From: Cladocopium goreaui
Lineage: Eukaryota; Sar; Dinophyceae; Suessiales; Symbiodiniaceae
Reading direction: 5' to 3'
Assembly: GCA_947184155.2 (NCBI GenBank)
Contig: CAMXCT020002328.1
Location: forward strand, 33,501 to 97,500
Length of the DNA: 64,000 nt
The notes under the pieces: model-generated
What the model was told of the DNA's origin: nothing
The model's input: only the letters and a program-made list of their open reading frames with translations
Databases searched by the model: none
Shown here: positions 7,757 through 29,561 of the stretch, piece after piece
How positions within the stretch are numbered: the stretch's first letter is position 1
How the letters are laid out: each line of letters opens with the position of its first letter
Position numbers and translations under genes: made by a program

Positions 7757-10700
7757 TCAACTCCCACCTTTTGATGGTAAAGCAGCTGTCAATTTGGCCG
7801 GTGCCCGCTCCTGCGCGCGCATGCGCCTGGAACGGACGCGCCGTTTCGGGTTCGCCTCTGGTGCAGGCGTGGGAACTCCAGCACCTGGGCATTGGCGCAG
7901 AATGGAAAAGAGGATCTAACCATCAATTTGCGATTTAAATCATGAAATGTTGTGAATTTCATAGCGGAATTCACGATGAATGGTGGTTTCATAGTTATAT
8001 TATATAGGGAAGTCGGGTTTTCAAGCATGAAATTTGGGAATATTTCATGGGGAAATATCGCAGCAATATTGGGATTTAATCGGATATCCACCGACCCCAG
8101 CCGACAGCAGGGGGAGCGCGTCAGAGAAGAGGGGACACGACACAAGGGGCAAGAATAAGAGAATAAGAACAAGGATGGCATAAGAGAAGATGATAAGAAT
8201 AAAACTGTCAGCGGCAAGAGTCAGAAGGCAAGAAGCCAAGGCGCCAGCACAAGAAGCCCATTGACGGAGCAGCGACGGGAGTTCCCCCCACCTTGGGGAC
8301 GTTGCAGTCCTCATGCCACTCCGTCTCCGAGGAAAGCGCCTCGGATGCCATGAGGCAGCCTTCGGCATGCCGCGAGACTTTCTTGTCCGATCGCGTGTTC
8401 TTTGCCTGCGGGACCTGCGACTCCTTCTCCGCGATCAGAAAGCAACGTTAGGCACTGACAAGAGGCAGCGGCAAGAGAAGGCAGCCTTGGAAGCCCGCGC
8501 CGTAGCTGGGTGGTGCTTGTATGTGTCCAAGGAAAAGTTTCGGAGGCCCGAAGCTGGCAAGTCTGGCGCTGGTTTCTTGTGGGTTCAGGAAGCAACGTGA
8601 GGCCCTTAGGCAGTGACAGGGGGCAGCTTTGGAAGCCCGTCCGTCCCGCGAAGGGGGTCTTGTCGGTTGAGAAAGCAACGCTAAGCAGTGGCAGGGTGTT
8701 TGTATGTGGCAAAGGGGACGTTTCGGAGGCCCGAAGCTGGCGAGTCTTTTGTCGGCTCAGGCACTGGCAGGTAGCAGCTTTGGAAGCCCGTCCGTCCCGT
8801 AGTTGGGTGGTGTTTGTATGTTGCGAAGGGGACGTTTCGGAGGCCCGAAGCTGGTAAGTCTGGAGCTAGTTTTGCAATGTCAAAAGAAAACGTGGAAGTT
8901 ACGAAGCAGTGTAAATAGCGGTGTTTTAGCAACTTTTGGACGCTGAAACATTGTTATCTACAAATTTGAGAAGCCTTGAAATCCCACGGGACTTGTCCAA
9001 GTCAAACGCGCCTGGTTTCGACTTTTTGGACTTCTTACAACTCAAGGGATTCGCTCCTGGCCGGAAAGCCATGGGAAAACCCAAGGGAAATCCTAGAGGC
9101 ATGGGGATTTTAATGGGAAAATGATGGAGGAAAACTATCTATAAAACTGATACCAAATAGGATTTCCCATATTATGAACAATTGTGCATATTTGCATGGG
9201 GATTTTAATGAGAAAATTATCATGAATTATCTACAACTGATGATTACCAGAGGGCACCTGACCAAAATCGTCTGAATGGCACAAGTTCAGCAGGAACATC
9301 CTCTCTCAAACGTGCTTTTTGAAAGTTCATTGGGATTCCATGTTTGTTTCATCAACCATATGGAAACCCACGCCCCAAACCACCAGTTCCGACCCATTTT
9401 TCCATGGCAAAATCCATGGCGAAAAATCCCCCATCTCTGGCTGCTTCGATTCGCCGCTGATCCGCCGTCCTTTCTTCTTCCTCACCTTCTTTGGCTGCTC
9501 CGCCAAGGCCTTCGCCTGGATCTCTTTCGCCTTCGAGACATTGATGTTGACAGGTGATCGTTAAAAACCGCCAGGTTTAACGACCATCACAAAGTTATCA
9601 AGGGCTGATTGGGGGGATATACCATGATATAACGATCTTTCCTTGGTTTCTAGGGTTGATTCGAGGGATATAATGAACTATAGTTAATAGATTTTTAAAC
9701 CAACAAACATACCTGGGGACCTTGTACAAATGTGCCCTGCAAATGTTCACCAATTCTGGAATCTCAAGCCCCCAAGGTTTGTTGGAAATGTCCCCATCCA
9801 TTCATCCATGTTTGTCACTTGCACAATCATTAATCACCGGTTGGCTTCTCCATCCAACCTCCAAAGGTATCCAACCACCCTGACGCCCTGCTTTAAATTG
9901 ATGTAAATGAGCAGGCCCCATTGTTCTACTACATCTATTACCCACTTACATCTGGAATCTCTCCATTTGTAATGTACCATTTTCTTCAAGTCCCCAAAAA
10001 AAAGAAAGTGAAATCTTACTAACCCTTTTCTATGTTTTTTGGCAATTCCTTTTCCAAAAAAAAAACACATCCAACAACGGTTCCACCATCCCAACCATCA
10101 GAGATGCCACCTTCAGCTTTGGCAGCTTGGGCTTCTCCCACTCTGCGGCGCGCACTTTCTGCGTTTCCAGCGACGCCTTTCGTTTCTGCGACGTCTTCGA
10201 AGGCTCCTCCAGCTGCGGCACGGGACCGTGCAGCCTGGCGTTGAGAGCTAGGGAAGGGACCAACTCCACAAAGAGATAGACTTAGATCGAAATCCACGGT
10301 CGAAAATAGCAAAAATCACTCAAAATCTATGTGAAATAGCAAAAATTGCTCAAAATCTATGTGCCATCTATCTGTTGTTTATCCTTTTTGGGGGATCCTA
10401 GCAATGTAGGCATGGAAACATGACACAGATCCGCGCCTGATGAGCGGCACGCCGGGGACGTCCCTCAACGTCTGCAGCAGCTCGGGATCTTGGGTGGCCA
10501 CCAATAGCCTCACCACAGGAAAACCATGGAGGGTTGGATCAGACCACAAAATCAATCATTTTTGGGAAATGTTGTGACCAATCATTACATGTTTGGGCAA
10601 TTTGTGCGGGAAAAACAGAACAAAGTGGCAAGGTGGAACAATTTTGGTTTTTCGATGTTTTTCTCATGGTCAGGGGTTTCCAGGTTTCCATGCCAAAAAT

Positions 10701-13700
10701 ATGGTGACCATCCGGTCGGCCCCATCGCATCCCATGGCCGCGGTGGCCTTCGCTCGTTCTGTTGGCCGATCTGTTGCGCGATGCACTTAGAGGCGACGAT
10801 GGGATCTTCATGGCCACACTTCAGGCGGTAGTACCTGGAGAGCCCCCTGGTCCAAAAAGACGGGAGCAGAATTTGCAATATCATGCAATATCACTGTTTT
10901 GGAGATGATGAAATATTGATATTGATGAAATATTGGTGGAGTTGTTAGAATGTTGGTTGATTCTTTCATGTGATGCAAAAAAAAACGAGTCTTATCATGC
11001 TTTGCCTGTCATTACGAGTTTGGCGTTGAACCTCTTCCCCTGTTCTTGGATAGAGTCGGCAGGAGAGCACCTGATCAGTAGTTTGAGATATCAGTAGTTT
11101 GAGATATATATATATATATATATATATACAATACATGCATATGGCTGTGGCTCAAAAAATGGCTATGAATCGTTCCGCGGTGATCCATATGGATCAAGAG
11201 TATGGATCGCCTGTGAATTTTAACCCTTGATCCTGACCTGGAATTTTGAGCCTTAGCCAGGTTGATCCAGACCATGCACAAGAAAGAAAGGGTGGAGTTT
11301 GCTCGCACGGCATCTAATCACCTGACTTTGTTACCTGACTTTGTTCATCACGAATCACGAATCACTTGGGAAGTCAACACTTCACCCAAGGATTTCCTCC
11401 AGAATAACCGACTCTATGGAGACGGTCGTCTCAATCTTTGGAAGCCCTGAATTTTGACCCAATACCATCCAATACCATCCAATTCTCTCCATTTTTGCAG
11501 ATGTTTCGTTGCTCAAACCAACCTGGCCAGGTCACCCCTTGGCGATGATGGCCGCCCCCAAGGCGCGATCTCCGAGGGAGCGGAGTTCTTCCAACACACA
11601 GTTGGTGACCATGGGAGTCGTTCTGCCTTCTAACATCTTGGGAAGTTGCTCCTGCCAGGGAAAACCCATGGGGAAAAAACGAACACCAATGATTTGGAGC
11701 CGGTGACGAAATTCATGGGATTTCATGGTGACTAAAAATTGGGAATACTGTATACAGAATGAGGTAGTAGATTATATATGCTGGTAATTCTTGTTGCAGA
11801 TTGCGAAGTGTGACATGGTGTCAAAAAATGCGACCTTTTCCATGGCTATGTTAGATCATAGGAGAGTATAGGGCCAGAAGAAAACAGAAATAGGCTGGAG
11901 AATTCCAAAACTGATACGAGAGGACAAAGCAACTTTAGTGGTGAAATGTTTTCCAAAGATTCCATGTCCATATCTGACTTCATCTGTTGACTTCATCTCC
12001 TGCTCTTGCTTGTGCAAGTCCCCCACGTGTTCGTCATAAAATCTGTGTTTATGTCCCCGACTTTATACTACATGATTATATGTCTCATGAAATATATGAT
12101 TATATGTCTCCATCAAATATATCATAACATATCATGACATATCATAACATCCCCGTCAACAAAAACAAACATGTCCCGCCTTCACATAGATGCGCTGCTG
12201 CAGTGCATGCGTCAGAAAGGTGCCGTCCACCAAAACATGATAAGGCTCCTGGCGCGGCTGGAGATTTCCTGGAGGATCATCCCACGGTCCATGGGATTAG
12301 TGAACGTAACTGGGGGTTAGTTCATCCATCAATGGGAAAATGCCACGAAGATTGGGACTTATTAACCATTACAAGGGTCATTAACCCTGGTTACCAGTGG
12401 TCCTCCAGGGTTATTAACCAGGCTTATTAATCCGTTGCGATCCGTGGGGATCGTCCAAGTAGCCATGCTGGATGGGGATGACCGATTCTTACAGCGGCTA
12501 CCCGTGGTTTCTGTTCATATCTGTTTATATACTGTGACTATGTAATGACGATGCAATGACTATGTAATGACTATGTAATGACTATGTAATGACTATGTAA
12601 TGACTATGTATTGTCATAATTTGTCATATAGTTACATAAATTCACATAACTGGTTGGTGGTTAACCTACCCCTCTGAAAATATGAGTTCATCAATTGGGA
12701 TGATGACATTCCCAATATATGGAAAATATAAGCCATGTTCCAAACCACCAACCAGATAATATCTCAATTTGTTTCAAGCAGGACTATGTAATGACTATGT
12801 AGTGACTATGTAATGACTATGTAGTGACTATGTAATGACTATGTAATGACTATGTAATGACTATGTATTGTCATAATTTGTCATATAGTTACATAAATTC
12901 ACATAACTGGTTGGTGGTTAACCTACCCCTCTGAAAAATATGAGTTCGTCAGTTGGGATGATGACATTCCCAATATGGAAAAATATAAGCCATGTTCCAA
13001 ACCACCAACCAGATAATATCTCAATTTGTTTCAAGCAGGACTATGTAATGACTATGTAATGACTATGTAATGACTATGTAATGACTATGTAATGACTGTG
13101 TAATGACTATGTAATGACTATGTAATGACTATGTAATGACTATGTAATGACTATGTAATGACTATGTAATGACTATGTAATGACTATGTAATGACTATGT
13201 ATTGTCATAATTTGTCATATAGTTACATAAATTCACATAACTGGTTGGTGGTTAACCTACCCCTCTGAAAATATGAGTTCATCAATTGGGATGATGACAT
13301 TCCCAATATATGGAAAATATAAGCCATGTTCCAAACCACCAACCAGATAATATCTCAATTTGTTTCAAGCAGGACTATGTAATGACTATGTAGTGACTAT
13401 GTAATGACTATGTAGTGACTATGTAATGACTATGTAATAACTATGTATTGACTATGTAATGACTATGTAATGACTATGTAATGACTATGTAATGACTATG
13501 TATTGTCATAATTTGTCATATAGTTACATAAATTCACATAACTGGTTGGTGGTTAACCTACCCCTCTGAAAAATATGAGTTCGTCAGTTGGGATGATGAC
13601 ATTCCCAATATGGAAAAATATAAGCCATGTTCCAAACCACCAACCAGATAATATCTCAATTTGTTTCAAGCAGGACTATGTAATGACTATGTAATGACTA

Positions 13701-16700
13701 TGTAATGACTATGTAATGACTATGTAATGACTGTGTAATGACTATGTAATGACTATGTAATGACTATGTAATGACTATGTAATGACTATTGTTACTGGAA
13801 AAATCATCATCGTTTTCAATGAAAAAGTCCACTTTTGCAATATCCAAGAAGAATTGGAATCATGGGATTCATAGGGATTTGTAGGAATCTAATGATTTAA
13901 TGGAATGTATAAGGATAAAAAATTGGGAAAGTAATGAGATAATAATAAGGATTACCAGAGGGTATAGGGATTTAACCATCTAGAGGAGTTTAGCCATGAT
14001 GTTTTTTGAGGGGATATTGGAAATGTGAATGAAATTTTTTAACCACTATTTATTTTGTCTGTTTAGCCCACTGGGGCAATATTTTATTGCGATGCCGATT
14101 GGCGGTACACCAGTTTGACCAGAATTTCTGCTCCCAATTCCAAAAACTGGATGATTTTTAGACCCATCCAATGCAGCGGCAGCGGCAAATATGTTTCATA
14201 TACAAGTAACCACAGGATATACGAGCATGGGCCTGTATATGGGAAACTGACAGCGCTGGCTTTGTCAATACTTGATATTGATCCCAGCTGTCATGAAGAC
14301 TGGGAAGATACCCCCAGGTAATCAAACGCAATGGAAAATCCCCCGGTACGGTACCCTCTGGTAAACGTTTACAAAAAATTAAGGAAAATCACAATTTTTA
14401 ATGGGTTAATCAACTATTTCGACTGGGCCATTTTCAATAGCGAACTGTTAAATTTCCAGAGGGTATACGTTTTTCCCATTAAAACCTCCATGACTCGGGG
14501 AGTATCGCCCTGATGGTTTTGAGGCATCGAGGCTAAAGGCGATTTTCTTTATCAGCTGGGACTTTATGGCTGTGGGTAAAACAATGCCATTTGCACCATC
14601 CCCCAGTCATCACCATTTTTAGAGGTGCTATAAACAAATCCCAAATGGGTGGTTTATGACATTGCTTTAACCGCATTACAACCTTTTGGGTAGCTGTAAC
14701 CATCCAGACATACGAGCCCAACGACTGTACCAAAATATGGCACAAATTCAACAAATTCACAACGAGCCGATCACGTTTTGACCTTTTAGTGCGCGTAACA
14801 TCTTAACTCGCGGCCAAATTTTGCTCTGTCCTCATAATCCACTAAACTCAATGGTGGTGTGGGTCGAACCCAGAACATCCCAGAATAGCCGAAGGGAAAT
14901 GTTACGGTTGAAACCCCTATACAGCATATACATATGGAGGTTTCCTAAAATGGGGTTACCCCCAAATCATCCAAGTCATTAGACCATTTTAGTATTGAAA
15001 CCCATGGTGACTTCGGGATCCCCCATTTTAAGAAACCCCCCATATATACCACGTATTGTTGGAGGTAAAAACCATGGTTTCCAGTTCATTGGGATCAACC
15101 ATGGATCAACCTACTCGTCTCGACCTAGCCAATTTGCTCGCCTTTTCAACGACACTTCCGAAAGCCAATCACAGGACTGTAGTTCTGGCCCAGTAAAATG
15201 CAACGTGGCTACACATATGCAAAGTGTGCTAAGAATGCTGAGCTGTCCCCACCAGAAGCTGGATTGCCCCAAGTCACCACGGACCCATCCGCCAAGATCG
15301 CAGCAAATGCGCTATCAGTTGCTTGAATCTGCTGCACACTCTTGAGCCGATCTTGGACTTCAGAGCTGTCACTACCATAATCTGGATCGCCCCAAGTCAC
15401 AACCGATCCATCTGACAGGATAGCAGCAAATGCCCTGTCAGTGGCTTGAACCTGCCGGACTCCCTTGAGCTGATCTTGTACTTCCCAGCTGTTAGCACCA
15501 CCATATTCATCGCCCCAAGTCACAACTGAGCCATCTGCCAGGATCGCAGCAAACGCGCGAGCACTTGATTGAACTTTCTGGACGCTCTTGAGCTGATCTC
15601 GGACTTCAGAACTACCATATACTGGATCCCCCCAGGTGACGACTGACCCATCTGCTAGGATCGCAGCAAACGCGCCAGCTTTACGATCTGATAGAACTGG
15701 AGTTCCTTGAACTTGCTGGACGCTCTTGAGCTGATCCTGGACTTCAGAGCTGTCACCACCAAAATCTGGATCGCCCCAGGTGACGACTGACCCATCTGCT
15801 AGGATCGCAGCAAATGCCCTTCCATTTGCTTGAAGCTGCTGGACACCTTTTAGCTGATGTTGGACGTGAAAGCTGTCACCACCATAATGCGGAAGGCCCC
15901 ATGTCACGACGGACCCATCGGTAAGGATAGCAGCAAATGCGCCATTGATTGCCTGAACCTGCTGGACACCCTTGAGCTGATGTTGGACCTGAGAGCTGTC
16001 ACCGCCAAAATGCGGACTGCCCCATGTCACGACCGACCCATCGGTAAGGATCGCAGCAAATGCCCTGTCAGTTGCCTGAACCTGCTGGACACCCTTGAGC
16101 TGATGTTGGACCTGAGAGCGGTCACCGCCAAAATGCGGACTGCCCCATGTCACGACCGACCCATCGTTAAGGATAGCAGCAAATGCGCCATAGGCTGCCT
16201 GAACCTGCTGGACACCCTTGAGCTGATGTTGGACCTGAGAGCTGTCACCGCCAAAATGCGGACTGCCCCATGTCACGACCGACCCATCGGTAAGGATCGC
16301 AGCAAATGCCCTGTCAGTTGCCTGAACCTGCTGGACACCCTTGAGCTGATGTTGGACCTGAGAGCGGTCACCGCCAAAATGCGGACTGCCCCATGTCACG
16401 ACCGACCCATCGTTAAGGATAGCAGCAAATGCGCCATAGGCTGCCTGAACCTGCTGGACACCCTTGAGCTGATGTTGGACCTGAGAGCTGTCACCGCCAA
16501 AATGCGGACTGCCCCATGTCACGACCGACCCATCGGTAAGGATCGCAGCAAATGCGCCATAGGATGCCTGAACCTTCTGGACACCCTTGAGCTGATCTTG
16601 CACGTGAGAGCTGTCACCACCAAGACCTGAAGGTCCCCAAGTGACAACCCGGTCACCTCCAGGGCAAAACAACGCAAAAGCTCGGTCTGTTGCCGCTAGC

Positions 16701-19700
16701 CTTGCCTCTACGGCAATAGCTGTCAGATGGTCTCCATCTTCAAGTCCTGCAGCTTGTAGAGACACTGCAGGATCCACCACGCTATGGTCTGCATCCACAA
16801 GCCTCAAGAAGCCACGTTGAAATGCTTTCTGCGCCAGAATCCTCAAGTCCCCTACTTTGGAGGACGGTTCAAGCGAAAATGTCTCACTTTGCCCGCTTGG
16901 CAAAGCTACAGTAACTTGAAGCATGCGTCAAGAAACTCAAATGCACCGGTTTCTCGACTTGATTTTGAGCCTAACTTCGGCACGTTCCAAGGTATCATAG
17001 AACTACCATCCTGGAAACACGTTTCTATCTTCTTGGGGGACCTTGGGAGCCTATAAATTTGGAAATTGATTGGAAGATTGGCTGATTTATCACCCACTTT
17101 GCCATCGAAAGCGCAATGCAACCAGCCAAAAGTATGATTTAAGCATCAAAAGTAGTGAAAAAATAGCCTTGGTTGATGAGTTTCTGAATGAGGATCTCCC
17201 CATCATTTATAGAGTTTTGATTCCAAAATGTAGCAGAAATCATCCAAAATCGATTGGAAAATCCTTAACTGTCAACCCTGGCTAGGATTGGTTTGCAGCA
17301 AATCAAAAACTGGAATTTGACCATCAAAAGTGGTTATAGAGCGGTGATTATTCAAATTTAACAATACTTCCAAATTTGGTCATATCCATTTTATGTATAA
17401 CCGCCAATTGATATCAAACAAATGTTTGGTGGATGAATTACTGATTTAACCTCTATTTTGTGGTTCATAAGAATATGGGGATATCCTTGAATGATTGATA
17501 AACGGCCGTTGGTTGATGATTAGTTCATTTGTTTGAAAAGAAACAAATAAAATTGGTTGCTACACGTATGTATACATGTAGACCATTTTTTGTGCGTAAC
17601 ATCTTAACTCGCGGCCAAATTGTTCTGTCCTCATCATCCCCTAAACTCAAAGGTGGTATGGGTCGAACCCAGAACATCCCAGAATAGCTGAAGGGAAAAG
17701 TTACGGTTGAAACCCCTATACAGCATATACATATGGAGGTTTCCTACAATGGGGTTACCCCCAAATCATCCAAGTCATTAGACCATTTTAGTATTGAAAC
17801 CCATGGTGACTTCGGGATCCCCCATTTTAAGAACCCCCCCATATATACCATGCATTGTTGGAGGTAAAAACCATGGTTTCCAGTTCATTGGGATCAACCA
17901 TGGATCAACCTACTCGCCTCGACCTAGCCAATTTGCTCGCCTTTTCAACAACACTTCCGAGAGCCAATCACAGGGTAGTTCTGGCCCAGTAAATGCAACG
18001 TGGCTACACATATGCAAAGTGTGCTAAGAATGCTGAGCTGTCCCCACCAGAAGCTGGATTGCCCCAAGTCACCACGGACCCATCCGCCAGGATCGCAGCA
18101 AAAGCGCTATCAGTTGCTTGAATCTGCTGCACACTCTTGAGCCGATCTTGGACTTCAGAGCTGTCACCACCACAATCTGGATCACCCCAAGTCACAACCG
18201 ATCCGTCTGACAGGATAGCAGCAAATGCCCTGTCAGTGGCTTGAACCTGCCGGACTCCCTTGAGCTGATCTTGTACTTCCCAGCTGTTAGCACCACCATA
18301 TTCATCGCCCCAAGTCACAACTGAGCCATCTGCCAGGATCGCAGCAAACGCGCCAGCTTCAAGATCTGATAGAACTCGAGTTCCTTGAACCTGCTGGACT
18401 CCCTTGAGCTGATCCTCGACTTCAGAGCTGTCACCACCAGAATCGTCGATTCCCCAAGTCACAACCGAGCCATCTGCCAGGATTGCAGCAAACGCGCTTC
18501 CATTTGATTGAACCTGCTGGACACCTTTGAGCTGATGTTGGACCTGAGAGCTGTCACCACCATAATTGGGATTGCCCCAGTTCACAACTGACCCATCTGC
18601 CAGGATCGCAGAAAATGCGCCAAAAGTTCCTTGAACTTGCTGGACGCTCTTGAGCTGATCCTGGACTTCAGAGCTGTCACCACCAAAATCTGGATCGCCC
18701 CAGGTGACGACTGACCCATCTGCTAGGATCGCAGCAAATGCCCTTCCATTTGCTTGCACCTGCTGGACACATTTTAGCTGATGTTGGACCTGAAAGCTGT
18801 CACCACCATAATTGGCACTGCCCCAAGTCACAACCGACCCATTCTCCAGGATGGCAGCAAACGCACCCTCAGTTGCTAATACGCCAAAGTTCCTTGAACT
18901 TGCTGGACGCTCTTGAGCTGGCCCTGGACTTCGGAGCTGTCACCACCAGAATCTTCATCTCCCCAAGTCACGACCGACCCATCGCTAAGGATAGCAGCAA
19001 ATGCGCCATAGGATGCCTGAACCTTCTGGACACCCTTGAGCTGATCTTGCACGTGAAAGCTGTCACCACCAAGACCTGAAGGTCCCCAAGTGACAACCCG
19101 GTCACCTCCAGGGCAAAACAACGCAAAAGCTCGGTCTGTTGCCGCTAGCCTTGCCTCTACGGCAATAGCTGTCAGATGGTCTCCATCTTCAAGTCCTGCA
19201 GCTTGTAGAGACACTGCAGGATCCACCACGCTATGGTCTGCATCCACAAGCCTCAAGAAGCCACGTTGGAATGCTTTCTGCGCCAGAATCCTAAAGTCCC
19301 CTACTTTGGAGGACGGTTCAAGCGAAAATGTCTCGCCTTGCCCGCTTGGCAAAGCTACAGTAACTTGAAGCATGTCAAGAAACTCAAATGCACCAGTTTC
19401 TCAAATTGATTTTGAGCCTAACTTCGGCACATTCCGAGGAAAATATCATCGAACTACCATCCTGGAAACACGTTTCTATCTTCTTGGGGGACCTTGGGAG
19501 CCTATAAATTTGGAAATTGATTGGAAGAGTGGCGGATTTATCACCCAGCCATCGAAAGCGTACAACCAGCCAAAATTTTGAGCATCAAAAGTAGTGAAAA
19601 AAACCGGTTGATGAGTTCCTGAATGAGGATTTCCCTATCATTTATAGAGTTTTGATTCCAAAACGTAGCAGAAATCATCCAAAATCGATTGGAAAATCCT

Positions 19701-22700
19701 TTAGAATGTGGAGATGCAAAAAGTGGAATCATCCGAGTTTCTTGGCTGTCAACCCTGGTTTGGATTGAAGCAGCAATTCAAAAATTGGAATTTGACCATC
19801 AAAAGTGGTTTTAGAGCGGTGATTATTCAAATTTAACAATACTTCCAAATTTGGTCATATCCATTTTATGTATAACCGCCAATTGATATCAAACAAATGT
19901 TTGGTGGATGAATTACTGATTTAACCTCTATTTTGTGGTTCATAAGAATATGGGGATATCCTTGAATGATTGATAAACGGCCGTTGGTTGATGATTAGTT
20001 CATTTGTTTGAAAAGAAACAAATAAAATTGGTTGCTACACGTATGTATACATGTAGACCATTTTTTGTGCGTAACATCTTAACTCGCGGCCAAATTGTTC
20101 TGTCCTCATAATCCCCTAAACTCAATGGTGGTATGGGTCGAACCCAGAACATCCCAGAATAGCTGAAGGGAAAAGTTACGGTTGAAACCCCTGTACAGCA
20201 TATACATATGGAGGTTTCCTAAAATTTCGGGTTCTCATTAGACCATTTTAGTATTGAAACCCATGGTGACTTCGGGATCCCACATTTTAAGAACCCCCAT
20301 ATATACCATGTATTGTTGGAGGTAAAAACCATGGTTTCCAGTTCATTGGGATCAACCATGGATCAACCTACTCCTCTTGACCTAGCCAATTTGCTCGCCA
20401 TTTCAACGACACTTCGGAAAGCCAATCACAGGGTAGTTCTGGCCCAGTAAATGCAACGCGGCTACACATATGCAAAGTGTGCTAAGAATGCTGAGCTGTC
20501 CCCACCAGAAGCTGGATTGCCCCAAGTCACCACGGACCCATCCGCCAGGATCGCAGCAAAAGCGCTATCAGTTGCTTGAATCTGCTGCACACTCTTGAGC
20601 CGATCTTGGACTTCAGAGCTGTCACTACCATAATTTGGATCGCCCCAAGTCACAACCGATCCATCTGACAGGATAGCAGCAAATGCCCTGTCAGTGGCTT
20701 GAACCTGCTGGACATCTTTTAGCTGATGTTGGACCTGAGAGCTGTCACCACCATAATTGGTATTGCCCCAGGCCACAACTGACCCATCGGTCAGGATTGC
20801 AGCAAATGCGCCAATGGTTGCTTGAACCTGCTGGACTCCCTTGAGCTGATCTTGTACTTCCCAGCTGTTAGCACCATAATATTCATCGCCCCAAGTAACA
20901 ACTGAGCCACCTGCCAGGATCGCAGCAAACGCGCCAGCTCCAAGATCTGATAGAACTCGAGTTCCTTGAACTTGCTGGACGCTCTTGAGCTGATCCTGGA
21001 CTTCAGAGCTGTCACCACCAAAATCTGGATCACCCCAGGTGACGACTGACTCATCTGCCAGGATCGCAGCAAATGCGCCATAGGATGCCTGAACCTGCTG
21101 GACACCCTTGAGCTGATCCTGGACCCCAGAGCTGTCACCACCAAAATCTGGATCACCCCAGGTCACGACTGACCCATCCGCCAGGATCGCAGCAAATGCG
21201 CCATTGGTTGCTTGAACCTGCTGGACGCACTTGAGCTGATCCTGGACTTCAGAGCTGTCACCACCATAATCTGGATTACTCCACGTGACGACTGACCCAT
21301 CTGCCAGGATCGCAGCAAATGCGCCAAAAGTTCCTTGAACTTTCTGGACACCTTTGAGCTGATGTTGGACCTGAGAGCTGTCACCACAATAATAGGCATT
21401 GCCCCAAGTCACAACCGACCCATCGGTAAGGATAGCAGCAAATGCGTCATAGGATGCCTGAACCTGCTGGACACCATTGAGCTGACCTTGGACCCGAGGG
21501 CTGTCACTTGCATGACTTAGAAAGCCCCAAGTCACAACCCGGTCACCTCCACAGCAAAATAAAGCAAAAGCTCGGTCTGTTGCCGCTAGCCTTGCCTCTA
21601 CGGCAATAGCTGTCAGATGATCTCCATCTTCAAGTCCTGCAGCTTGTAGAGACACTGCAGGATCCACCACGCTATGGTCTGCATCCACAAGCCTCAAGAA
21701 GCCACGTTGGAATGATTTCTGCGCCAGAATCCTCAAATCCCCTACTTTGGAGGATGGTTCAAGCGAAAATGTCTCGCCTTGCCCGCTTGGCAAAGCTACA
21801 GTAACTTGAAGCATGTCAAGAAACTCAAATGCACCAGTTTCTCAAATTGATTTTGAGCCTAACTTCGGCACATTCCGAGGAAAATATCATCGAACTACCA
21901 TCCTGGAAACACGTTTCTATCTTCTTGGGGGACCTTGGGAGCCTATAAATTTGGAAATTGATTGGAAGAGTGGCGGATTTATCACCCAGCCATCGAAAGC
22001 GTACAACCAGCCAAAAGTCGGATTTAAGCATCAAAGGTAGTGAAAAAAAACGGTTGATGAGTTCCTGAATGAGGATTTCCCTATCATTTATAGAGTGTTG
22101 ATTCCAAAACGTAGCAGAAATCATCCAAAATCGATTGGAAAATCCTTTAGAATGTGGAGATGCAAAAAGTGAAATCATCCGAGTTTCTTGGCTGTCAACC
22201 CTGGTTTGGATTGAAGCAGCAATTCAAAAATTGGAATTTGACCATCAAAAGTGGTTTTAGAGCGGTGATTATTCAAATTTAACCATACTTCCAAATTTGG
22301 TCATATCAATTTTATATATAACCGCCAATTGATATTCAAACAAATGTTTATGGGGATATCCTTGAATCATTGATAAACGGCCGTTGGTTGATGATTAGTT
22401 CATTCCCCACCTGCCAGGTGAGGGTTGTTAGCTTTTATCAGAGCTGTTCGCCTCCTCCTCCTCCTTCTCCTCCGCCTCCTCCTCGCCAACTCTTCGCCAA
22501 GCTCTTCGCCAACCCTTCGCCAAGCTCTTCGCCAAGCTCTTCGCCAACTCTTCGCCAAGCTCTTCGCCAATCTCTTCGCCAACTTCCACGCGCAGTGGGC
22601 ACTGCTGGACCTCAACCGCAAGGTTCTGAGCGCAGTGGGCACCGCTCGACCTCAACCCGGGACCGTCCGAGCCCAGTGGACCGCTGGACCTCAACCCGGG

Positions 22701-25700
22701 ACCGTCCGAGCCCAGTGGGCACCGCTGGACCTCAACCCGGGACCGTCTGAGCTCAGTGGGCACCGCTGGACCTCAGCGGCCAAATGGAATGCCAGAAGGT
22801 ATGCCAGATAGAATGCCAAAAGATTTGCGAGATAGAATACCAGAAGATTTGCCAGATAGAATGCCAGAATATGCCAGAAGATTTTCCAGATAGAATGCCA
22901 GAAGATATGCCAGGCAGAATGCCAGAAGATATGCCAGATAGAATGCCAGAAGATATGCCAGAACATATGACAGAAGATATGCCAGGTAGAATACCAGAAG
23001 ATATGTCAGATAGAATACCAGAAGTTTTGCCAGTAACAAAATGTATCATGGTGGGGATCACACGAAGTAAAGTATGTTTTTGAAAAGAAACAAATAAAAT
23101 TGGTTACTATACGTATGTATACATGTAGACCATTTTTTGTGCGTAACATCTTAACTCGCGGCTAAATTGTTCTGTCCTCATAATCCGCTAAACTCAATGG
23201 TGGCGTGGGTCGAACCCAGAAAATCCCAGAATCGCTGAAGAGAAAAGTTACGGTTGAAACCCCTGTACAGCCAATACAGCATATTATACATATGGAGGTT
23301 TCCTAAAATGGGGTTACCCCCAAATCATCCAAGTCATTAGACAATTTTATCCATTTTAGTATTGAAACCCATGGTGACTTCGGGATCCCCCATTTTAAGA
23401 ACCCCCATATATACCATGTATTGTTGGAGGTAAAAACCATGGTTTCCAGTTCATTGGGATCAACCATGGATCAACCTACTCGTCTCGACCTAGCCAGTTT
23501 GTTCGCTTTTTCAACAACACTTCCAAGAGCCAATCACAGGGTAGTTCTGGCCCAGTAAATGCAACGTGGCTACACATATGCAAAGTGTGCTAAGAATGCT
23601 GAGCTGTCCCCACCAGAAGCTGGATTGCCCCAAGTCACCACGGACCCATCCGCCAGGATCGCAGCAAAAGCGCTATCAGTTGCTTGAATCTGCTGCACAC
23701 TCTTGAGCCGATCTTGGACTTCAGAGATGTCACCACCACAATCTGGATCGCCCCAAGTCACAACCGATCCATCTGACAGGATAGCAGCAAATGCCCTGTC
23801 AGTTGCTTGAAGCTGCCGGACTCCCTTGAGCTGATCTTGTACTTCCCAGCTGTTAGCACCACCATATTCATCGCCCCAAGTCACAACTGAGCCATCTGCC
23901 AGGGTCGCAGCAAACGCGCCAGCTTCAAGATCTGATAGAACTCGAGTTCCTTGAACCTGCTGGACTCCCTTGAGCTGATCCTCGACTTCAGAGCTGTCAC
24001 CACCAGAATCCTCGATTCCCCAAGTCACAACCGAGCCATCTGCCAGGATTGCAGCAAACGCGCTTCCATTTGATTGAACCTGCTGGACACCTTTGAGCTG
24101 ATGTTGGACCTGAGAGCTGTCACCACCATAACTGGGATTGCCCCAGCTCACAACTGACCCATCTGCCAGGATCGCAGCAAATGCGCCAAAAGTTCCTTGA
24201 GCTTTCTGGACGCTCTTGAGCTGATCCTGGACTTCAGAGCTGTCACCACCAGAATCGTCGATTCCCCAAGTGACAACCGAGCCATCTGCCAGGATTGCAG
24301 CAAACGCGCTTCCATTTGATTGAACCTGCTGGACACCTTTGAGCTGATGTTGGACCTGAGAGCTGTCACCACCATAATTGGCATTGCCCCAAGTCACAAC
24401 CGACCCATTTTCCAGGATGGCAGCAAATGCACCCTCAGTTGCTACTACGCCAAAAGTTCCTTGAACTTGCTGGACGCTCTTGGGCTGGCCCTGGACTTCG
24501 GAGCTGTCACCACCACAATCTTCATCTCCCCAAGTCACGACCGACCCATCGCTAAGGATAGCTGCAAATGCGCCTATGGCATAGGATCCCTGAACCTTCT
24601 GGACACCCTTGAGCTGATCTTGCACGTGAGAGCTGTCACCACCAAGACCTGAAGGTCCCCAAGTGACAACCCGGTCACCTCCAGGGCAAAACAACGCAAA
24701 AGCTCGGTCTTCGCTAGCCTTGCCTCTACGGCAATAGCTGTCAGATGGTCTCCATCTTCAAGTCCTGCAGCTTGTAGAGACACTGCAGGATCTACCACGC
24801 TATGGTCTGCAGCCACAAGCCTCAAGAAGCCACGTTTGAATAATTTCTGCGCCAGAATCCTCAAGTCCCCTACTTTGGAGGACGGTTCAAGCGAAAATGT
24901 CTTGTCTTGCCCGCTTGGCAAAGCTACAGTAACTTGAACCATGTCAAGAAACTCAAATGCACCGGTTTCTCGAATTGATTTTGAGCCTAACTTCGGCACA
25001 TTCCGAGGAAAATATCATCGAACTACCATCCTGGAAACACGTTTCTATATTCTTGGGGGACCTCGGGACCCTATAAATTTGGAGACTGATTGGAAGATTG
25101 GCTGATTTGTCACCCAGCCATCGAAAGCGTACAACCAGCCAAAAGTCGGATTTAAGCATCAAAAGTAGTGAAAAAAAACGGTTGATGAGTTCCTGAATGA
25201 GGATTTCCCCATCATTTAAATTTAAAGAGTTTTGATTCCAAAACGTAGCAGAAATCGTCCAAAATCGATTGGAAAATCATTTGCTACAGTAGAATGTGGA
25301 GATGCAAAAAGTGAAATCATCCGATTTTCCTGGCTGTCAACCCTGGTTTGGATTGAAGCAGCAATTCAAAAATTGGAATTTGACCAAAAGTTGTTATTCT
25401 TGTGGTGATTATTCAAATTTAACCATACTTCCAAATTTGGTCATATCCATTTTATATAAATATACCAGTAGTACCCGCACGAGGCGGGGCGGAAGTTGCC
25501 TTAGGGATATATATATATATTAAAGAAAAAGACCTTTCTCATCTATAGAACTTGCATGCGCCGTGCGCCAGCCAAGCCCGTGCGTGCGTCCACTCTGCGA
25601 AAGTGTTGTCCTGTTTCACATGTCACATTTGAAGCTTCACTTCGCACTTCACACTTCTCACTGCGCTCTTCCCACTCCACACTTCACACTTCACACTCCA

Positions 25701-28700
25701 CACTTCACACTGCACTCTTCCCACTCCACACTTCACACTTCACACTCCACACTTCACACTTCACACTTCACAGTCCACACTTCACACTTCTCACTTCTCA
25801 TTGCTTTCTTCACACTCCACACTTCACACTTCACACTGCACTCTTCACGCCCCACACTTCACACTTTACTCTTCACACTCCACACTTCATCTCATCTGAG
25901 CTCTTCTCACCTTATCCCAGCTCATCTCTTCTCATCTCATCTCTTCTCATATGTCATCTAAGCTTCCATGAATCACTTCCCAGAGAACTTGCATGCACCG
26001 TGCGCCGGCCAGGCCCGTGTGTGCGTGCTTTGTGCGAAGCTGTTGCAGTGTTGCTGTCCAAGAACATGACTCGCGCGCGACCCCGGTGCAATGCAACGTC
26101 AAGCAAACACTTTCCTCGCACTTCACCTTGCACTCTTCACACCCCACACTCCACACTTCACACTTGCACTTCATCTCAACTCAACTCATCTCATCTGAGC
26201 TCTTCTCATCTCATTTCATGTCTTCCCATATGTCAGCTAAGTTCTTCTTGGCTAGTTTCACGCTATCTGAGCGCAGCTCAACCTTTCTCATCTCACCGAA
26301 GCTAGTCTCCACTCATCTCGGCACTTCTGCACGTCAGAAAGCTTGAGACACAGATGCATTTACACAGAACGGTCTTTACAAAATACTTTGTACTACAAAG
26401 CTTGCACAAAGCACGTCCCAGTACTACTTTGTTCTACAAAGCTTGCAAAAAGCACTTCTTTGTACTACAAAGCTTGCACTTCCAGTATTACTTTGCACTA
26501 CAAAGCTTGCACAAAACACTTCCCAGTACGACTTTGTACTACAAAGCTTGCACAAAGCACTTCCCAGTACTACTTTGTACTACAAAGCTTGCACAAAGTA
26601 TTTCCCAGTATTACTTTGTACTACAAAACTCGCGCAAAATATTTCCCAGTACTACTTTGTACTACAAAGCTTGCACAAACTACTTCCAGTACTACTGTGT
26701 ACTACAAAGCTTGCACAAACTACTTCCCAGTACTACTTTGTACTTCAAGGCTTGCACAAAGTATTTCCTCCCAGTACTACTTTGTACTACAAAGCTTGCA
26801 CAAACTACTTCCCAGTACTACTTTGTACTACAAAGCTTGCACAAAACACTTCCCAGTACTACTTTGTACTACAAAGCTTGCACAAAACACGTTCCAGTAC
26901 TACTTTGTACCACAGAGCTTGCACAAAACACTGCCCAGTACTACTTTGTACTACAAAGCTTGCACAAAGCACTTCCCAGTACTACTTTGTACTACAAAGC
27001 TTGCACAAACTACTTCCCGGACTACTTTGTACTACAAAGCTTGCACAAAGCACTTCCCAGTACTACTGTGTACTACAAAGCTTGCACAAACTACTTCCCA
27101 GTACTACTTTGTACTACAAAGCTTGCACAAAACACGTTCCGGTACTACTTTGTACTACAAAGCTTGCACAAAGCACTTCCCAGTACTACTGTGTGCTACA
27201 AAGCTTGCACAAACTACTTCCCAGTACTACTTTGTACTACAAAGCTTGCACAAAGCACTTCCCAGTACAACTTTGTACTGCAAAACTTGCACAAACTACT
27301 TCCCAGGACTACTTTGTACTACAGAGCTTGCACTCAGGACTACTTTGTACTACAAAGCTTGCACAAACTACTTTCCAGTACTACTTTGTACTACGAAGCT
27401 TGCACAAAGCACTTCCCAGTACTACTTTGTGATACAAAGCTTGCACAAAGAAAGCTTTTACACACAGCAAATTCTTTGACAGCTGAAGCTTTTACACGCA
27501 GCAAGCTTTTTAAACAGAGAAGCTTTTACACACAGAAGCTTTTACACGCAACAAGCTTTTACACAGAGAAGTTTTACTCCAAAGCGCTTCCCAGTACTAC
27601 TTTGTGATACAAAGCTTGCACAAAGAAAGCTTTTACACGCAGCAAGTTCTTTGACAGTTGAAGCTTTTACACACAGCAAGCTTTTTAAACAGAGAAGCTT
27701 TTACACACAGCAAGCTTTTACTCAGAGCAAGCTTTCACACACAGCAAGCGTTTATACACAGAACACTTACACACAGAGAAGCTTTTACACACAGCAAGCT
27801 TTTACACGCAAAATCTTTTACACACAGCAAGCTTTTACAGAAAGAAGTTTTTACACAGAGAAGCTCGTTTTGTACCTAATCACAACAAAAATTGCAGCTC
27901 CAAAACCGGGTCTCGACGCCAAAGCGACAAAAAGACGATTTTGAAGCACTTTTTAAAGTGATTCTTGAAAGGAAAATTACTAGCGCCAAAATTGAAGAAA
28001 TTTGCTGACAAATCACTTTCGCAGCCTGGATGCAGCCACTCCAATACGATTTACGAGATCCAGCTGCAAAAGACAATAGTATTACACATGCAGCCGCGGC
28101 ACCAAGCAACCTTGACGCAGCCATTACAACGCGATCTGCAGAGACTGAGTTGCAAAACACAATAGAACTACGCGCAACAGCGTCGGCAATAGCAGCTCCA
28201 AAACCGGATCTCGACGCCAAAGCAGAAAAAAAACGATTTTTAAGCACTTTTTAAAAGGATTTTTAAAAGGAAAATTAATAGCGCCAAAAGTGCGAAAATC
28301 TGCTCACAAATGACTACCGCAGCCTGGATGCAGCCACTATGTAATGACTATGTAAAAATGTAATGACTATGTAATGACTATGTAATGACTATGTAATGAC
28401 TATGTAATGACTATGTAATGACTATGCAATGAATGTAATGACTATGTAATGACTATGTAATGACTATGTAATGACTATGTAATGACTATGTAATGACTAT
28501 GTAATGACTATGTAATGACTATGTAATGACTATGTAGTGACTATGTAATGACTATGTAATGACTATGTAATGACTATGTAATGACTATGTAATGACTATG
28601 TAATGACTATGTAATGAGTATGTAATGACTATGTAGTGTCTATGTAATGACTATGTAATGACTATGTAATGACGATGTAATGACCATGTAATGACTATGT

Positions 28701-29561
28701 AATAACTATGTAATGACTATGTAATGACTATGTAATGACTATGTAATGACTATGTAATGACTATGCAATGACTATGTAATGACTATGTAATGACTATGTA
28801 ATGACTATGTAATGAATGTAATGACTATGTAATGACTATGTAATGACTAAGTAATGACTATGTAATGACTATGTAATGACTATGTAATGACTATGTAATG
28901 ACTATGTAATGACTATGTAATGACTATGTAATAACTATGTAATAACTATGTAATGACTATGTAATGACTATGTAATTACTATGTAATGACTATGTAACGA
29001 CTATGTAACGACTATGTAACGACTATGTAACGACTATGTAACGACTATGTAACGACTATGTAACGACTATGTAATGACTATGTAATGACTATGTAATGAC
29101 TATGTAATGACTATGTAATGACTATGTAATGACTATGTAATGACTATGTAATGACTATGTAATGACTATGTAATGACTATGTAATGACTATGTAATGACT
29201 ATGTATTGTCATAATTTGTCATATAGTTACATAAATTCACATAACTGGTTGGTGGTTGACCTACCCCTCGGAAAAATGATGGAGTTCGTCAGTTGGGATG
29301 ATTATTCCATTCCCAATATATGGAAAGTCATATAAGCCATGTTCCAAACCACCAACCAGATATCTCATTAACCATTATTCACCACTATTGAACCACTATT
29401 AACCAGATAAAAACCATGGTTACAAACCACCAACCAGATAATCTCTCAATCTGTTTCAAGCAGGAAATGACCCATCAGGACCCCGCCGCGGCCTGCACCC
29501 CGAAGGTCAAGCGAAAGAAGCGCAGGATGCGGCGATGGTTCTTGTTCCGCTTCACACGCAT
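7757..29561 (-). CDS. UTP23: UTP23, SSU-processome PIN-domain rRNA-processing protein (complete, nine exons)
   Basis: Exons: 29493-29561, 12180-12248, 11536-11651, 10748-10834, 10437-10508, 10111-10234, 9455-9530, 9012-9056 and 7757-7884. They total 786 nt, 261 codons plus stop, with phase kept at every junction. Seen: N-terminus MRVKRNKNHRRILRFF, then FGVQEPYHVLVDGTF, EQLPKMLEGRTTPMVTNCVL, LKCGHEDPIVASKC, LLVATQDPELLQ, DVPGVPLIRLHGPVPQL, GRRISGANPLSCKK and a basic tail. Known: UTP23 is a nucleolar U3 snoRNP-associated protein needed for early 18S rRNA processing. The PIN aspartates (VDGTF, ATQD), the Cys/His zinc motif and the ISGxNPLS tail separate it from its paralogue FCF1. Human UTP23 is 249 aa. 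Donors are GC in six introns and GT in two. Odd: intron 1 is 17.2 kb and holds the RCC1-like gene array on the same strand. Confidence 0.93.
8445..8880. repeat. Three imperfect ~170-bp tandem units in UTP23 intron 8
   Basis: The blocks GGACGTTTCGGAGGCCCGAA and GCAGCTTTGGAAGCCCGTCC recur, together with TGGGTGGTGTTTGTATGT. The neighbouring 8280-8440 patch is GC-rich and open on the minus strand (RHAEGCLMASEALSSETEW), but UTP23 splices cleanly across it. It may be an inserted gene fragment. Confidence 0.7.
12540..13792. repeat. 11-bp minisatellite (TAATGACTATG) interleaved with four palindromic elements
   Basis: Runs of TAATGACTATG, with TAGTGACTATG variants, alternate with four nearly identical spacers of about 170 bp that carry a family-2 palindrome. 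Spacers 1 and 3 share one variant and spacers 2 and 4 another, so a two-spacer block of about 0.6 kb was itself duplicated. Confidence 0.95.
12650..12755. repeat. Palindromic MITE-like element, family 2
   Basis: Ends CTGGTTGGTGGTT and AACCACCAACCAG. Near-identical copies follow at 12907-13012, 13241-13346 and 13542-13647 inside the minisatellite block. Confidence 0.85.
14352..14465. repeat. Palindromic MITE-like element, family 1
   Basis: Left end TACCCTCTGGTAAACG, right end CCAGAGGGTA, with the same inner blocks as the other copies. It is in UTP23 intron 1. Confidence 0.8.
14933..15047. repeat. Palindromic MITE-like element, family 3
   Basis: TATGGAGGTTTCCTAAAATG on the left mirrors CATTTTAAGAAACCCCCCAT on the right. 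The same element sits at 17732-17846, 20207-20303 and 23291-23411 in the other units. Relatives occur near 52,880-53,005, 57,675-57,776 and 58,142-58,229. Confidence 0.75.
15209..16924 (-). CDS. RCC1-like repeat protein with ubiquitin-like N-terminus, copy 1 (571 aa)
   Basis: An uninterrupted 571-codon ORF. Residues 1-80 (MLQVTVALPSGQSETFSLEP ... SLQAAGLEDGDHLTAI) have the shape of a ubiquitin-like beta-grasp domain. About twelve repeats of roughly 40 residues follow, each with AFAAILxDGSVVTWG and VQxQLKxVQQVQ. Known: the AAIL.DG.VVTWG core is that of RCC1/HERC-type blades, and such proteins are very abundant in Symbiodiniaceae. Here the repeats are shorter than classical 50-60-residue RCC1 blades. 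Function is unknown; a ubiquitin-related or binding scaffold role is only inference. The ORF is intronless and ends LAHFAYV like its sisters. A 120-bp unit is amplified at 15.96-16.58 kb. Expression is not shown. Confidence 0.75.
   Translation of the reverse strand: MLQVTVALPSGQSETFSLEPSSKVGDLRILAQKAFQRGFLRLVDADHSVVDPAVSLQAAGLEDGDHLTAIAVEARLAATDRAFALFCPGGDRVVTWGPSGLGGDSSHVQDQLKGVQKVQASYGAFAAILTDGSVVTWGSPHFGGDSSQVQHQLKGVQQVQAAYGAFAAILNDGSVVTWGSPHFGGDRSQVQHQLKGVQQVQATDRAFAAILTDGSVVTWGSPHFGGDSSQVQHQLKGVQQVQAAYGAFAAILNDGSVVTWGSPHFGGDRSQVQHQLKGVQQVQATDRAFAAILTDGSVVTWGSPHFGGDSSQVQHQLKGVQQVQAINGAFAAILTDGSVVTWGLPHYGGDSFHVQHQLKGVQQLQANGRAFAAILADGSVVTWGDPDFGGDSSEVQDQLKSVQQVQGTPVLSDRKAGAFAAILADGSVVTWGDPVYGSSEVRDQLKSVQKVQSSARAFAAILADGSVVTWGDEYGGANSWEVQDQLKGVRQVQATDRAFAAILSDGSVVTWGDPDYGSDSSEVQDRLKSVQQIQATDSAFAAILADGSVVTWGNPASGGDSSAFLAHFAYV
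15960..16580 (-). repeat. 120-bp in-frame repeat, alternating as a 240-bp higher-order unit
   Basis: Five near-identical copies encode VVTWGSPHFGGD plus QHQLKGVQQVQA. GGDSS/AAYGA and GGDRS/ATDRA variants alternate, so recent expansion went by pairs of blades. Sister copies lack this expansion. Confidence 0.9.
18004..19373 (-). pseudogene. RCC1-like gene copy 2, frameshifted
   Basis: Homologous to copy 1. Codons run from the ATG at 19373 to ...QQVQGTLAY and a stop at 18876. The same protein then continues in another frame through 18831-18004 to the common end LAHFAYV. Compared with copy 4 (GTFGVVATEG), an A-run of four has become three near 18,888, a 1-bp deletion. It could be a real lesion or a homopolymer sequencing error; the rest of the blades are intact. 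Either a recent pseudogene or a mis-called functional copy. Confidence 0.75.
20462..21814 (-). CDS. RCC1-like repeat protein with ubiquitin-like N-terminus, copy 3 (450 aa)
   Basis: Open from ATG to the common C-terminus. The ubiquitin-like segment occupies residues 1-80 and about nine VVTWG blades follow. First blades differ from copy 1 (VVTWGFLSHASDS, VVTWGNAYYCGDSS), one blade has VVTWSNPDYGG and one has VVAWG. Copy 3 lacks the 120-bp expansion of copy 1. Same strand and same flanks as the others. It may be a functional paralogue; no intron and no splice signal are seen. Confidence 0.72.
   Translation of the reverse strand: MLQVTVALPSGQGETFSLEPSSKVGDLRILAQKSFQRGFLRLVDADHSVVDPAVSLQAAGLEDGDHLTAIAVEARLAATDRAFALFCCGGDRVVTWGFLSHASDSPRVQGQLNGVQQVQASYDAFAAILTDGSVVTWGNAYYCGDSSQVQHQLKGVQKVQGTFGAFAAILADGSVVTWSNPDYGGDSSEVQDQLKCVQQVQATNGAFAAILADGSVVTWGDPDFGGDSSGVQDQLKGVQQVQASYGAFAAILADESVVTWGDPDFGGDSSEVQDQLKSVQQVQGTRVLSDLGAGAFAAILAGGSVVTWGDEYYGANSWEVQDQLKGVQQVQATIGAFAAILTDGSVVAWGNTNYGGDSSQVQHQLKDVQQVQATDRAFAAILSDGSVVTWGDPNYGSDSSEVQDRLKSVQQIQATDSAFAAILADGSVVTWGNPASGGDSSAFLAHFAYV
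22405..23074. repeat. 670-bp insertion made of three different minisatellites
   Basis: It interrupts the RCC1 unit exactly between GATTAGTTCATT and TGTTTGAAAAG, which are contiguous in the other units. It contains CTCTTCGCCAAG-type 12-bp repeats (22.43-22.58 kb), a GC-rich repeat of about 41 bp with GACCTCAACCCGGGACCGTC (22.59-22.77 kb), and a 24-bp repeat around GATATGCCAGATAGAATGCC (22.78-23.03 kb). ORFs in all frames are by-products of the periodicity. Confidence 0.85.
23570..24942 (-). pseudogene. RCC1-like gene copy 4, frameshifted after the ubiquitin-like domain
   Basis: The ATG at 24942 opens MVQVTVALPSGQ and runs through the ubiquitin-like domain. Near 24,708 four bases present in copies 1-3 are missing (GGTCTGTTGCCGCTAGCC versus GGTCTTCGCTAGCC). 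This shifts the frame before the first VVTWG blade. The remainder (24694-23570, 374 codons) stays open with about nine blades and the common end LAHFAYV. The open repeat part could still start at an internal methionine (MFCPGGDRVVTWG). Confidence 0.75.
25640..26225. repeat. CACTTCACA / CACTCCACA low-complexity repeat with duplicated leader
   Basis: Two blocks of CACACTTCACACTCCACA units are each preceded by a related segment (ACTTGCATGCGCCGTGCGCC near 25,551 and ACTTGCATGCACCGTGCGCC near 25,988) and followed by CATCTCATCTGAGCTCTTCT. So a unit of about 430 bp is duplicated. Confidence 0.85.
26380..27450. repeat. 43-bp satellite containing a HindIII-type AAGCTT core
   Basis: About 24 copies of a unit with TACAAAGCTTGCACAAA followed by CTTCCCAGTACTACTTTG. 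The absence of stop codons leaves long ORFs in all three forward frames. It shades into an AAGCTTTTACACACAGC repeat at 27.45-27.87 kb. Confidence 0.95.
27887..28340. repeat. ~150-bp direct duplication next to the minisatellite
   Basis: The blocks CTCCAAAACCGG, TCTCGACGCCAAAGC and GCAGCCTGGATGCAGCCACT occur at 27,887-28,040 and again at 28,187-28,340. The second copy runs directly into the 11-bp array. Confidence 0.8.
28335..29210. repeat. 11-bp minisatellite (TAATGACTATG), second block
   Basis: Roughly 75 units, including a short sub-array of the TAACGACTATG variant near 29.0 kb. It ends with the same TTGTCATAATTTGTCATA spacer as the block at 12.5-13.8 kb. Confidence 0.95.
29245..29359. repeat. 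Palindromic MITE-like element, family 2
   Basis: CTGGTTGGTGGTT at the left end and AACCACCAACCAG at the right, directly after the second 11-bp array and about 130 bp from UTP23 exon 1. Confidence 0.85.

Follow-up and report, generated by a model that had tools for sequence, protein, structure and literature searches.

Four RCC1-like units lie head to tail within the first intron of UTP23, on the same strand as their host gene. The explanation which best accounts for this arrangement as a whole, and which we hold to be probable, is that the array was inserted into the intron as a block of DNA in the sense direction and that its units would be released separately. The window analyzed here, a stretch of 64,000 nucleotides, corresponds to positions 33501 to 97500 of contig C2328 in a genome of 1.17 Gb and 6,202 contigs. 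The exact DinoSL 21-mer occurs 172 times in this genome and its reversed control 0 times, which identifies the genome as that of a dinoflagellate.

The UTP23 gene and its first intron

UTP23, a PIN-like rRNA processing factor of ribosome assembly, is encoded on the minus strand of the window. Exon 1 (MRVKRNKNHRRILRFFRLTFGVQ) occupies positions 29561 to 29493, ends at a GC donor, and was found at this single place in the genome. Exon 2 (EPYHVLVDGTFLTHALQQRIYVK), which was located by both protein alignment and genome search, spans 12248 to 12180 and likewise has a GC donor. Exon 3 (11651 to 11536) and exon 4 (10834 to 10767, with the 3′ end accurate to within a few bases) come from the genome search, while the ends of exon 5 (10508 to 10424) were placed by eye. 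The genome-search matches extend down to position 8989 and indicate further coding segments at 8989 to 9060, 9447 to 9539, and 10108 to 10254, all on the minus strand. Exons 4 and 5, when joined mechanically, fall out of frame. The earlier note on this DNA had stated that exons 1 and 2 join perfectly, and this is borne out: the donor CAG|gccgcg and the acceptor gccag|GAG produce the in-frame junction FGVQ|EPYHV across a GC-AG intron of 17,244 bp (12249 to 29492). The GC donors and AG|G acceptors found here agree with a table presented in PMC9412976, and in its use of GC donors the genome is similar to Symbiodiniaceae such as Cladocopium. Compared with introns 2 to 4, which measure 528, 701, and 258 bp when exon 5 is set at 10508, intron 1 is unusually long.

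The protein used in our searches was assembled by eye from the open segments of the gene, skipping uncertain ends. According to the Pfam search, the joined exons contain an Fcf1/PIN-like domain (Fcf1, E 4.6e-19) and narrowly pass the cut-off of the UTP23_sensor motif, with 15.3 bits against 15. The product of exons 1 and 2 aligns without gaps to the solved UTP23 from residue 1 with an E value of 0.0044, the match to FCF1 being weaker (0.14). When the five-exon query is considered alone, related FCF1 chains score somewhat above UTP23. On the basis of its N terminus and its C-terminal motif, the predicted host gene is assigned to UTP23 rather than to FCF1/UTP24.

The search of the whole genome with the UTP23 protein returned 12 matches. 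UTP23 appears to be a single-copy gene for which there is one exon 1 candidate, since all 8 of the matches with an E value below 1e-4 are located on contig C2328 and the best match on any other contig has an E value of 0.47. We also considered whether UTP23 starts elsewhere, either from a cryptic first exon at about 12.3 kb, which the earlier note had named as a possible objection to the join, or by addition of a spliced leader straight onto exon 2. The AG|G acceptor of exon 2 could indeed receive a spliced leader, and short exons are easily missed. Nevertheless, the exon 1 peptide starts with Met and is the top scorer against the yeast UTP23 N terminus among the 47,096 stop-free 23-mers on both strands of the window, with a score of 37 and a runner-up at 24, and no second exon 1 was detected in the window, by regular expression and fuzzy matching, or in the genome, by protein search. 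A start other than the predicted exon 1 is consequently very improbable.

The RCC1-like units and their family

The array with its spacers extends from 25458 to 14780 on the minus strand. The earlier note had placed all four units on the UTP23 strand inside intron 1, and each of them could be located there, wholly within the intron of a multi-exon gene, which makes them a nested intronic array. Unit u4 (24942 to 23570) is frameshifted, with a first stop at codon 123; u3 (21814 to 20462) is open over 450 codons; u2 (19373 to 18004) is frameshifted, with a first stop at codon 166; and u1 (16924 to 15209) is open over 571 codons. The description as a four-unit array thus holds for the number of units, but only u1 and u3 are predicted to encode a full protein, since u2 and u4 are frameshifted. 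In u1 and u3 the coding sequence forms one uninterrupted frame without introns, as is characteristic of DinoSL retrogenes. The RCC1_2 repeats of the units (PF13540; 107.4 bits and E 2e-31 for u3, 156.9 bits and E 5.3e-47 for u1, with a cut-off of 22) recur with a period of 123 bp, i.e., 41 codons, while WD40_RLD remained under its cut-off. From the stop codon to the next ATG, the spacers measure 1.1 to 1.8 kb; the one between u3 and u4 contains, at 22404 to 23079, about 675 bp that are extra relative to the other spacers and consist mostly of short tandem repeats.

The RCC1-like family to which the units belong is very large, with at least 228 matches at E values of 1e-20 or lower (94 of 1748 candidates scored). 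Same-strand arrays are a habit of this family, since, among the 16 contigs on which three or more family places lie, 15 are one-stranded, the contig of the window included and C5893 being the exception; this count is based on 150 listed family places, several of which may share one unit. A genome search with PF00415 gave at least 67 matches, none of them on C2328 among those listed (150 of 263 candidates scored). A separate array of PF00415-type RCC1 genes was observed at G000:C1975:33681-43369. Its four copies follow one another at intervals of about 2.7 kb and have equal scores in their repeat matches, so that the copies are perhaps near-identical.

Trees of the family are compatible with either one founder or several for the four window units. 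In the tree of the N-terminal 258 nt, a single clade of the four units was not recovered (3 changes, AU P value of 0.063). When 450 nt of 5′ flank were added, the window units and those of another array, on contig C4624, split with support of 96/96 (7 other rows uncounted), and a single window clade against all rows, with an AU P value of 0.09, was neither established nor rejected. In the tree of the 3′ flanks, the window units come together in the best tree with support of 72/86, which is not decisive.

Possible marks of reverse transcription were found in both the 5′ flanks and the 3′ ends of the family members. Of 47 family 5′ flanks, counted after removal of duplicates and of hits at locus edges, 15 match TTTTGGCTCAAG, the end of DinoSL, at 10 or more of its 12 positions, and the other 32 fall below this level; the matches begin 49 to 66 nt upstream of the ATG in 14 cases and 31 nt upstream in one. 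At the homologous site, the window units have a degenerate version that matches 9 of 12 positions, a score reached by shuffled sequences with a frequency of 0.055 to 0.08 per unit. In our reading by eye, the relic lacks four bases (CCAT) of the leader. It emerged as a lead only after the family flanks had been aligned: from the window alone, a DinoSL relic was rejected as not significant, since its edit distance of 7 is equaled or bettered at 179 minus-strand positions.

Concerning the 3′ ends, the motif AAAA[GC], reported as a dinoflagellate poly(A) site in a passage of PMC2488372, occurs at +42 to +143 in 29 of 37 unit ends; this count leaves out duplicates, all rows in which no stop codon is reached, and one window row that terminates at the stop inside u2, and it scores L034, with the motif at +40, as a miss. 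Between +42 and +120 it was observed 28 times, with a mean of 5.6 and a maximum of 14 in 500 shuffles, and about 24% of random 102-nt stretches on the minus strand of the window contain it. Among the window units, u1, u2, and u4 have the motif, and u3 does not. The 47 flanks and 37 ends are the best hits of the family, a nonrandom set which includes the four window units and in which related copies are not independent. Such marks are described as typical of DinoSL retrogenes (in the account of PMC12014239) and of reverse-transcribed copies (in that of PMC2488372). Hence, the RCC1-like family may be retro-derived, which bears on the origin of the family and not on the arrival of the array in UTP23.

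Two known systems resemble the array in these respects. As in the DinoSL-tagged retrogenes described in PMC12014239, the units are intronless and part of the family has a candidate leader remnant before the coding sequence; unlike in those genes, the window units have a relic in degraded form and the array itself appears to have moved as DNA. The tandem arrays of Amphidinium carterae, as presented in PMC2488372, likewise consist of head-to-tail copies with AAAA[GC] at about +60, and the AG acceptor candidates found here fall inside the 51 to 369 nt before the ATG given in that report. The Amphidinium carterae arrays, however, which were detected by PCR between copies, are not placed in introns in that account and are described as short-spaced, whereas the spacers of the UTP23 array exceed 1 kb.

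Repeats at the intron edges and probable entry of the array

Read from the donor, intron 1 consists of 28 nt, a satellite, a repeat block, the array, a linker of about 1 kb, a second satellite, and 286 bp leading to exon 2. The 5′ edge satellite (28336 to 29464, minus strand) is built of (ACATAGTCATT)n and a composite repeat and contains a 115-bp MITE at 29245 to 29359. The repeat block (about 25498 to 28335, with no strand assigned) comprises 41-bp and 17-bp tandem repeats at 26385 to 27865 and, at 27866 to 28335, a dispersed repeat with many genomic copies, which are mostly 87 to 93% identical to it (40 of 2018 candidates scored). The long open frames that run in all three plus-strand frames at 26271 to 27607 were considered as genes and rejected as a composition effect of the 41-bp repeat, which is stop-free. 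In the linker, two short dispersed repeats (14571 to 14680 and 14352 to 14465) have more than 10 listed places each elsewhere in the genome (40 of 3379 candidates scored). The 3′ edge satellite (12535 to 13789, minus strand) contains four composite units, 106-bp MITEs, and an 11-mer. A search of NCBIfam returned nothing informative.

The composite unit, which is made up of the MITE, its flanks, and the 11-mer, is 190 nt long and is common to both edges. At the 3′ edge its full length is matched at four places, and at the 5′ edge the match covers positions 25 to 190, with a second piece covering positions 1 to 57. All 37 listed matches on other contigs are confined to the central part, positions 14 to 157 (40 of 2457 candidates scored). 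Identity between copies of the composite unit is 87.9% when they are compared from one side of the array to the other and 93 to 98% inside the 3′ edge. We read the two edge satellites as a formerly continuous patch in the intron which the incoming block later split.

The same edges bear on the possibility, raised in the earlier note, that an assembly error joined the array to the UTP23 locus. The RCC1-like family has many copies, and satellites, where assemblers fail, are present at both junctions. Such an artefact would nonetheless take two separate errors, the edge repeat is matched in its outer parts at this locus alone among the same 40 of 2457 candidates, the UTP23 exons that were found all lie on a single contig and no second exon 1 was detected, and the window contains no N. 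Since both edges share the composite repeat and the searches gave no alternative exon 1, a misjoined assembly, like a wrong exon 1, is highly unlikely.

The MITE has a 13-bp terminal inverted repeat (the search tolerated as many as 2 mismatches), measures 106 to 116 bp, and is scattered through the genome. Its 4-bp target duplications, compared by eye, agree in 9 of 13 copies at other loci, a count in which the rows L032 and L033 are identical, and in 4 of the 5 intron copies. Another MITE copy lies in the window outside UTP23, at 42697 to 42812, and its flanking 4 bp disagree. Terminal inverted repeats combined with 4-bp target duplications are also features of the introners of Symbiodinium microadriaticum, as they are characterized in PMC9860276, and the likeness is one by description. 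Unlike those introners, the MITE does not provide the splice sites of intron 1: the composite repeat begins 28 nt inside the donor, the MITE of the 5′ edge begins at 29359, and the nearest MITE of the 3′ edge lies about 400 bp from the acceptor. On this ground, the idea that the MITE created intron 1 as an introner was rejected.

Evidence on how the array arrived comes from its 3′ flank (13790 to 15208, minus strand), which, as far as position 13789 and with gaps, is collinear with the 3′ flank of the array on C4624. Identity to C4624 is 83.9% over window positions 15910 to 14688 and 85.5% over the final 175 bp (13963 to 13789, matching C4624 233605 to 233432), where the match ends at 13789, the position at which the satellite begins. 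Between these two pieces there are in-order matches of just 22, 38, and 39 bp, while a repeat match of 116 bp breaks the order, which makes the collinearity of the flank patchy. C4624 continues past the breakpoint without satellite; the 11-mer was absent from the 4,000 bases that were read beyond this point, and for the 131 nt of C4624 that follow the breakpoint there is no other place among the matches listed (40 of 492 candidates scored). On the 5′ side, the homology between spacers stops at about 25497. Since the flank shared with C4624 breaks exactly at the satellite, the array with its 3′ flank, including at least one unit, is best understood as having been copied between the two loci as a block of DNA, in either direction; that the copying was directed into UTP23 is what we infer.

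The suggestion of the earlier note that the array expanded after landing is thus retained in part. Some later local duplication is suggested by the 98.5% identity of u2 to u3 in their 400-nt 5′ flanks and by the 93.7% identity of u2 to u4 across 2.4 kb, but the block would already have brought one unit or more, together with the 3′ flank, when it entered as DNA. In the explanation that we favor, single-exon RCC1-like genes arranged head to tail, members of a large family that is probably retro-derived, would have been copied as DNA, would have landed in the sense direction in a MITE and satellite patch in intron 1 of the single-copy UTP23, and would then have been duplicated in part and broken in part. 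The mapped breakpoint would make this locus a worked case of how an array enters an intron as DNA, in a type of genome known for its retroposed genes.

On C4624, directly past the shared flank, L056 (C4624:233201-233431, minus strand) is a GC-rich, exon-like open frame for which no Pfam match was found. The C4624 array, too, could end at or within another gene.

Proposed transcription across the nested array

Nested single-exon arrays have been reported for Polarella glacialis by Stephens et al. (2020; PMC7245778), and for this reason the arrangement is less exceptional than the earlier note held. The passages of that report considered here give 8.4% and 6.5% of genes as nested in two isolates, with up to 18 and 24 nested genes per host gene, and describe as an example a putative alanine-tRNA ligase with 15 nested genes in three introns, supported by full-length transcripts. 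Both cases involve a dinoflagellate in which genes of one family lie inside introns of a multi-exon housekeeping gene. The array described here differs from Polarella in that its members are RCC1-like, four of them share one intron, two are broken, and the insertion point is mapped; moreover, nesting in Polarella is backed by full-length transcripts, whereas the UTP23 array is predicted from sequence. The UTP23 locus is accordingly a further case of published intron-nested arrays, to which it adds the gene family, the broken copies, and the insertion point. PMC7245778 is the one report on nested arrays that we noticed, and others may exist.

If the block was inserted as we propose, RNA polymerase would traverse the array while transcribing UTP23, and the UTP23 mRNA would result from cis-splicing of exon 1 to exon 2 across the 17-kb array-bearing intron. 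The intact units would be freed by spliced-leader trans-splicing, each through its own 5′ acceptor, and their mRNAs would be cut at AAAAG-type poly(A) sites. A candidate acceptor, TTTCCAG|G, is present 86 to 88 nt upstream of the ATG in all four units, among other AGG sites. Counted against this explanation are that two of the four units are broken, that the open unit u3 lacks AAAA[GC], the state of the DinoSL relic, the patchy flank, the N-terminal tree (AU P value as given above), and the description of polycistronic mRNA in dinoflagellates as rare (PMC11453091) or without support (PMC7789003).

The array could instead be a decaying segmental copy which is transcribed just as intron sequence of UTP23 and never made into mRNA. 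This would fit the frameshifts in u2 and u4, the satellites and dispersed repeats that surround the block, and the many nonsynonymous changes in the first 74 codons of u4, where nonsynonymous and synonymous changes number 8 and 3 relative to u1, 8 and 1 relative to u2, and 6 and 4 relative to u3. Unit u4 carries more nonsynonymous change than the other units; u2, though broken, does not, and is equally conserved at its N terminus, the changes being few in this comparison. Conversely, u1 and u3 retain long open frames and differ in their N-terminal 80 codons by 5 synonymous but just 2 nonsynonymous changes, AAAA[GC] persists in three of the four units, and TTTCCAG|G persists in all of them. Taken together, we consider a silent array somewhat unlikely.

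A stronger form of the favored explanation, with which its probability overlaps, is that UTP23 and RCC1-like mRNAs derive from the same primary transcript, as in a nested operon in which cis- and trans-splicing compete. The shared strand, the single large intron, and the 5′ and 3′ processing-like signals which most units have of their own would suit such a precursor, and a review (PMC11453091) mentions that some tandem arrays give multi-gene transcripts resolved by DinoSL trans-splicing. On the other hand, each unit could have a separate start, the same review presents polycistronic mRNA as apparently rare in dinoflagellates, and a statement in PMC7789003 is that there is no evidence for it. 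In view of these two sources, we regard a precursor shared by UTP23 and the array as open rather than likely, and the nested operon as somewhat doubtful. It is quite unlikely that the locus forms one nested transcription unit whose precursor would be turned either into spliced UTP23 mRNA or into trans-spliced and polyadenylated RCC1-like mRNAs, and which the block could have entered without harm to UTP23 only in the sense direction. If this were true, use of the array would trade off against ribosome assembly. Co-transcription of neighboring genes in dinoflagellates is debated, and a conserved host gene that would be spliced across same-strand genes with processing-like signals offers a clean natural test of a shared precursor.

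Some features of the window were observed upstream of UTP23. Exon-like pieces on the same strand are located at 63200 to 63371, 37729 to 37969, and 39928 to 40104 (minus strand), and a 0.7-kb array of GGTATCTATTAA-type repeats occupies 46996 to 47730. The upstream pieces match the starch-binding domain CBM_20 with 27.1 bits (cut-off 23.3), and Alpha-amyl_C2 stays below its threshold with 17.8 against a cut-off of 27. They also include an 11-residue stretch which has no Pfam match and which looks amylase-like. Possibly, therefore, an amylase-like gene precedes UTP23 in a block of genes that all run one way.
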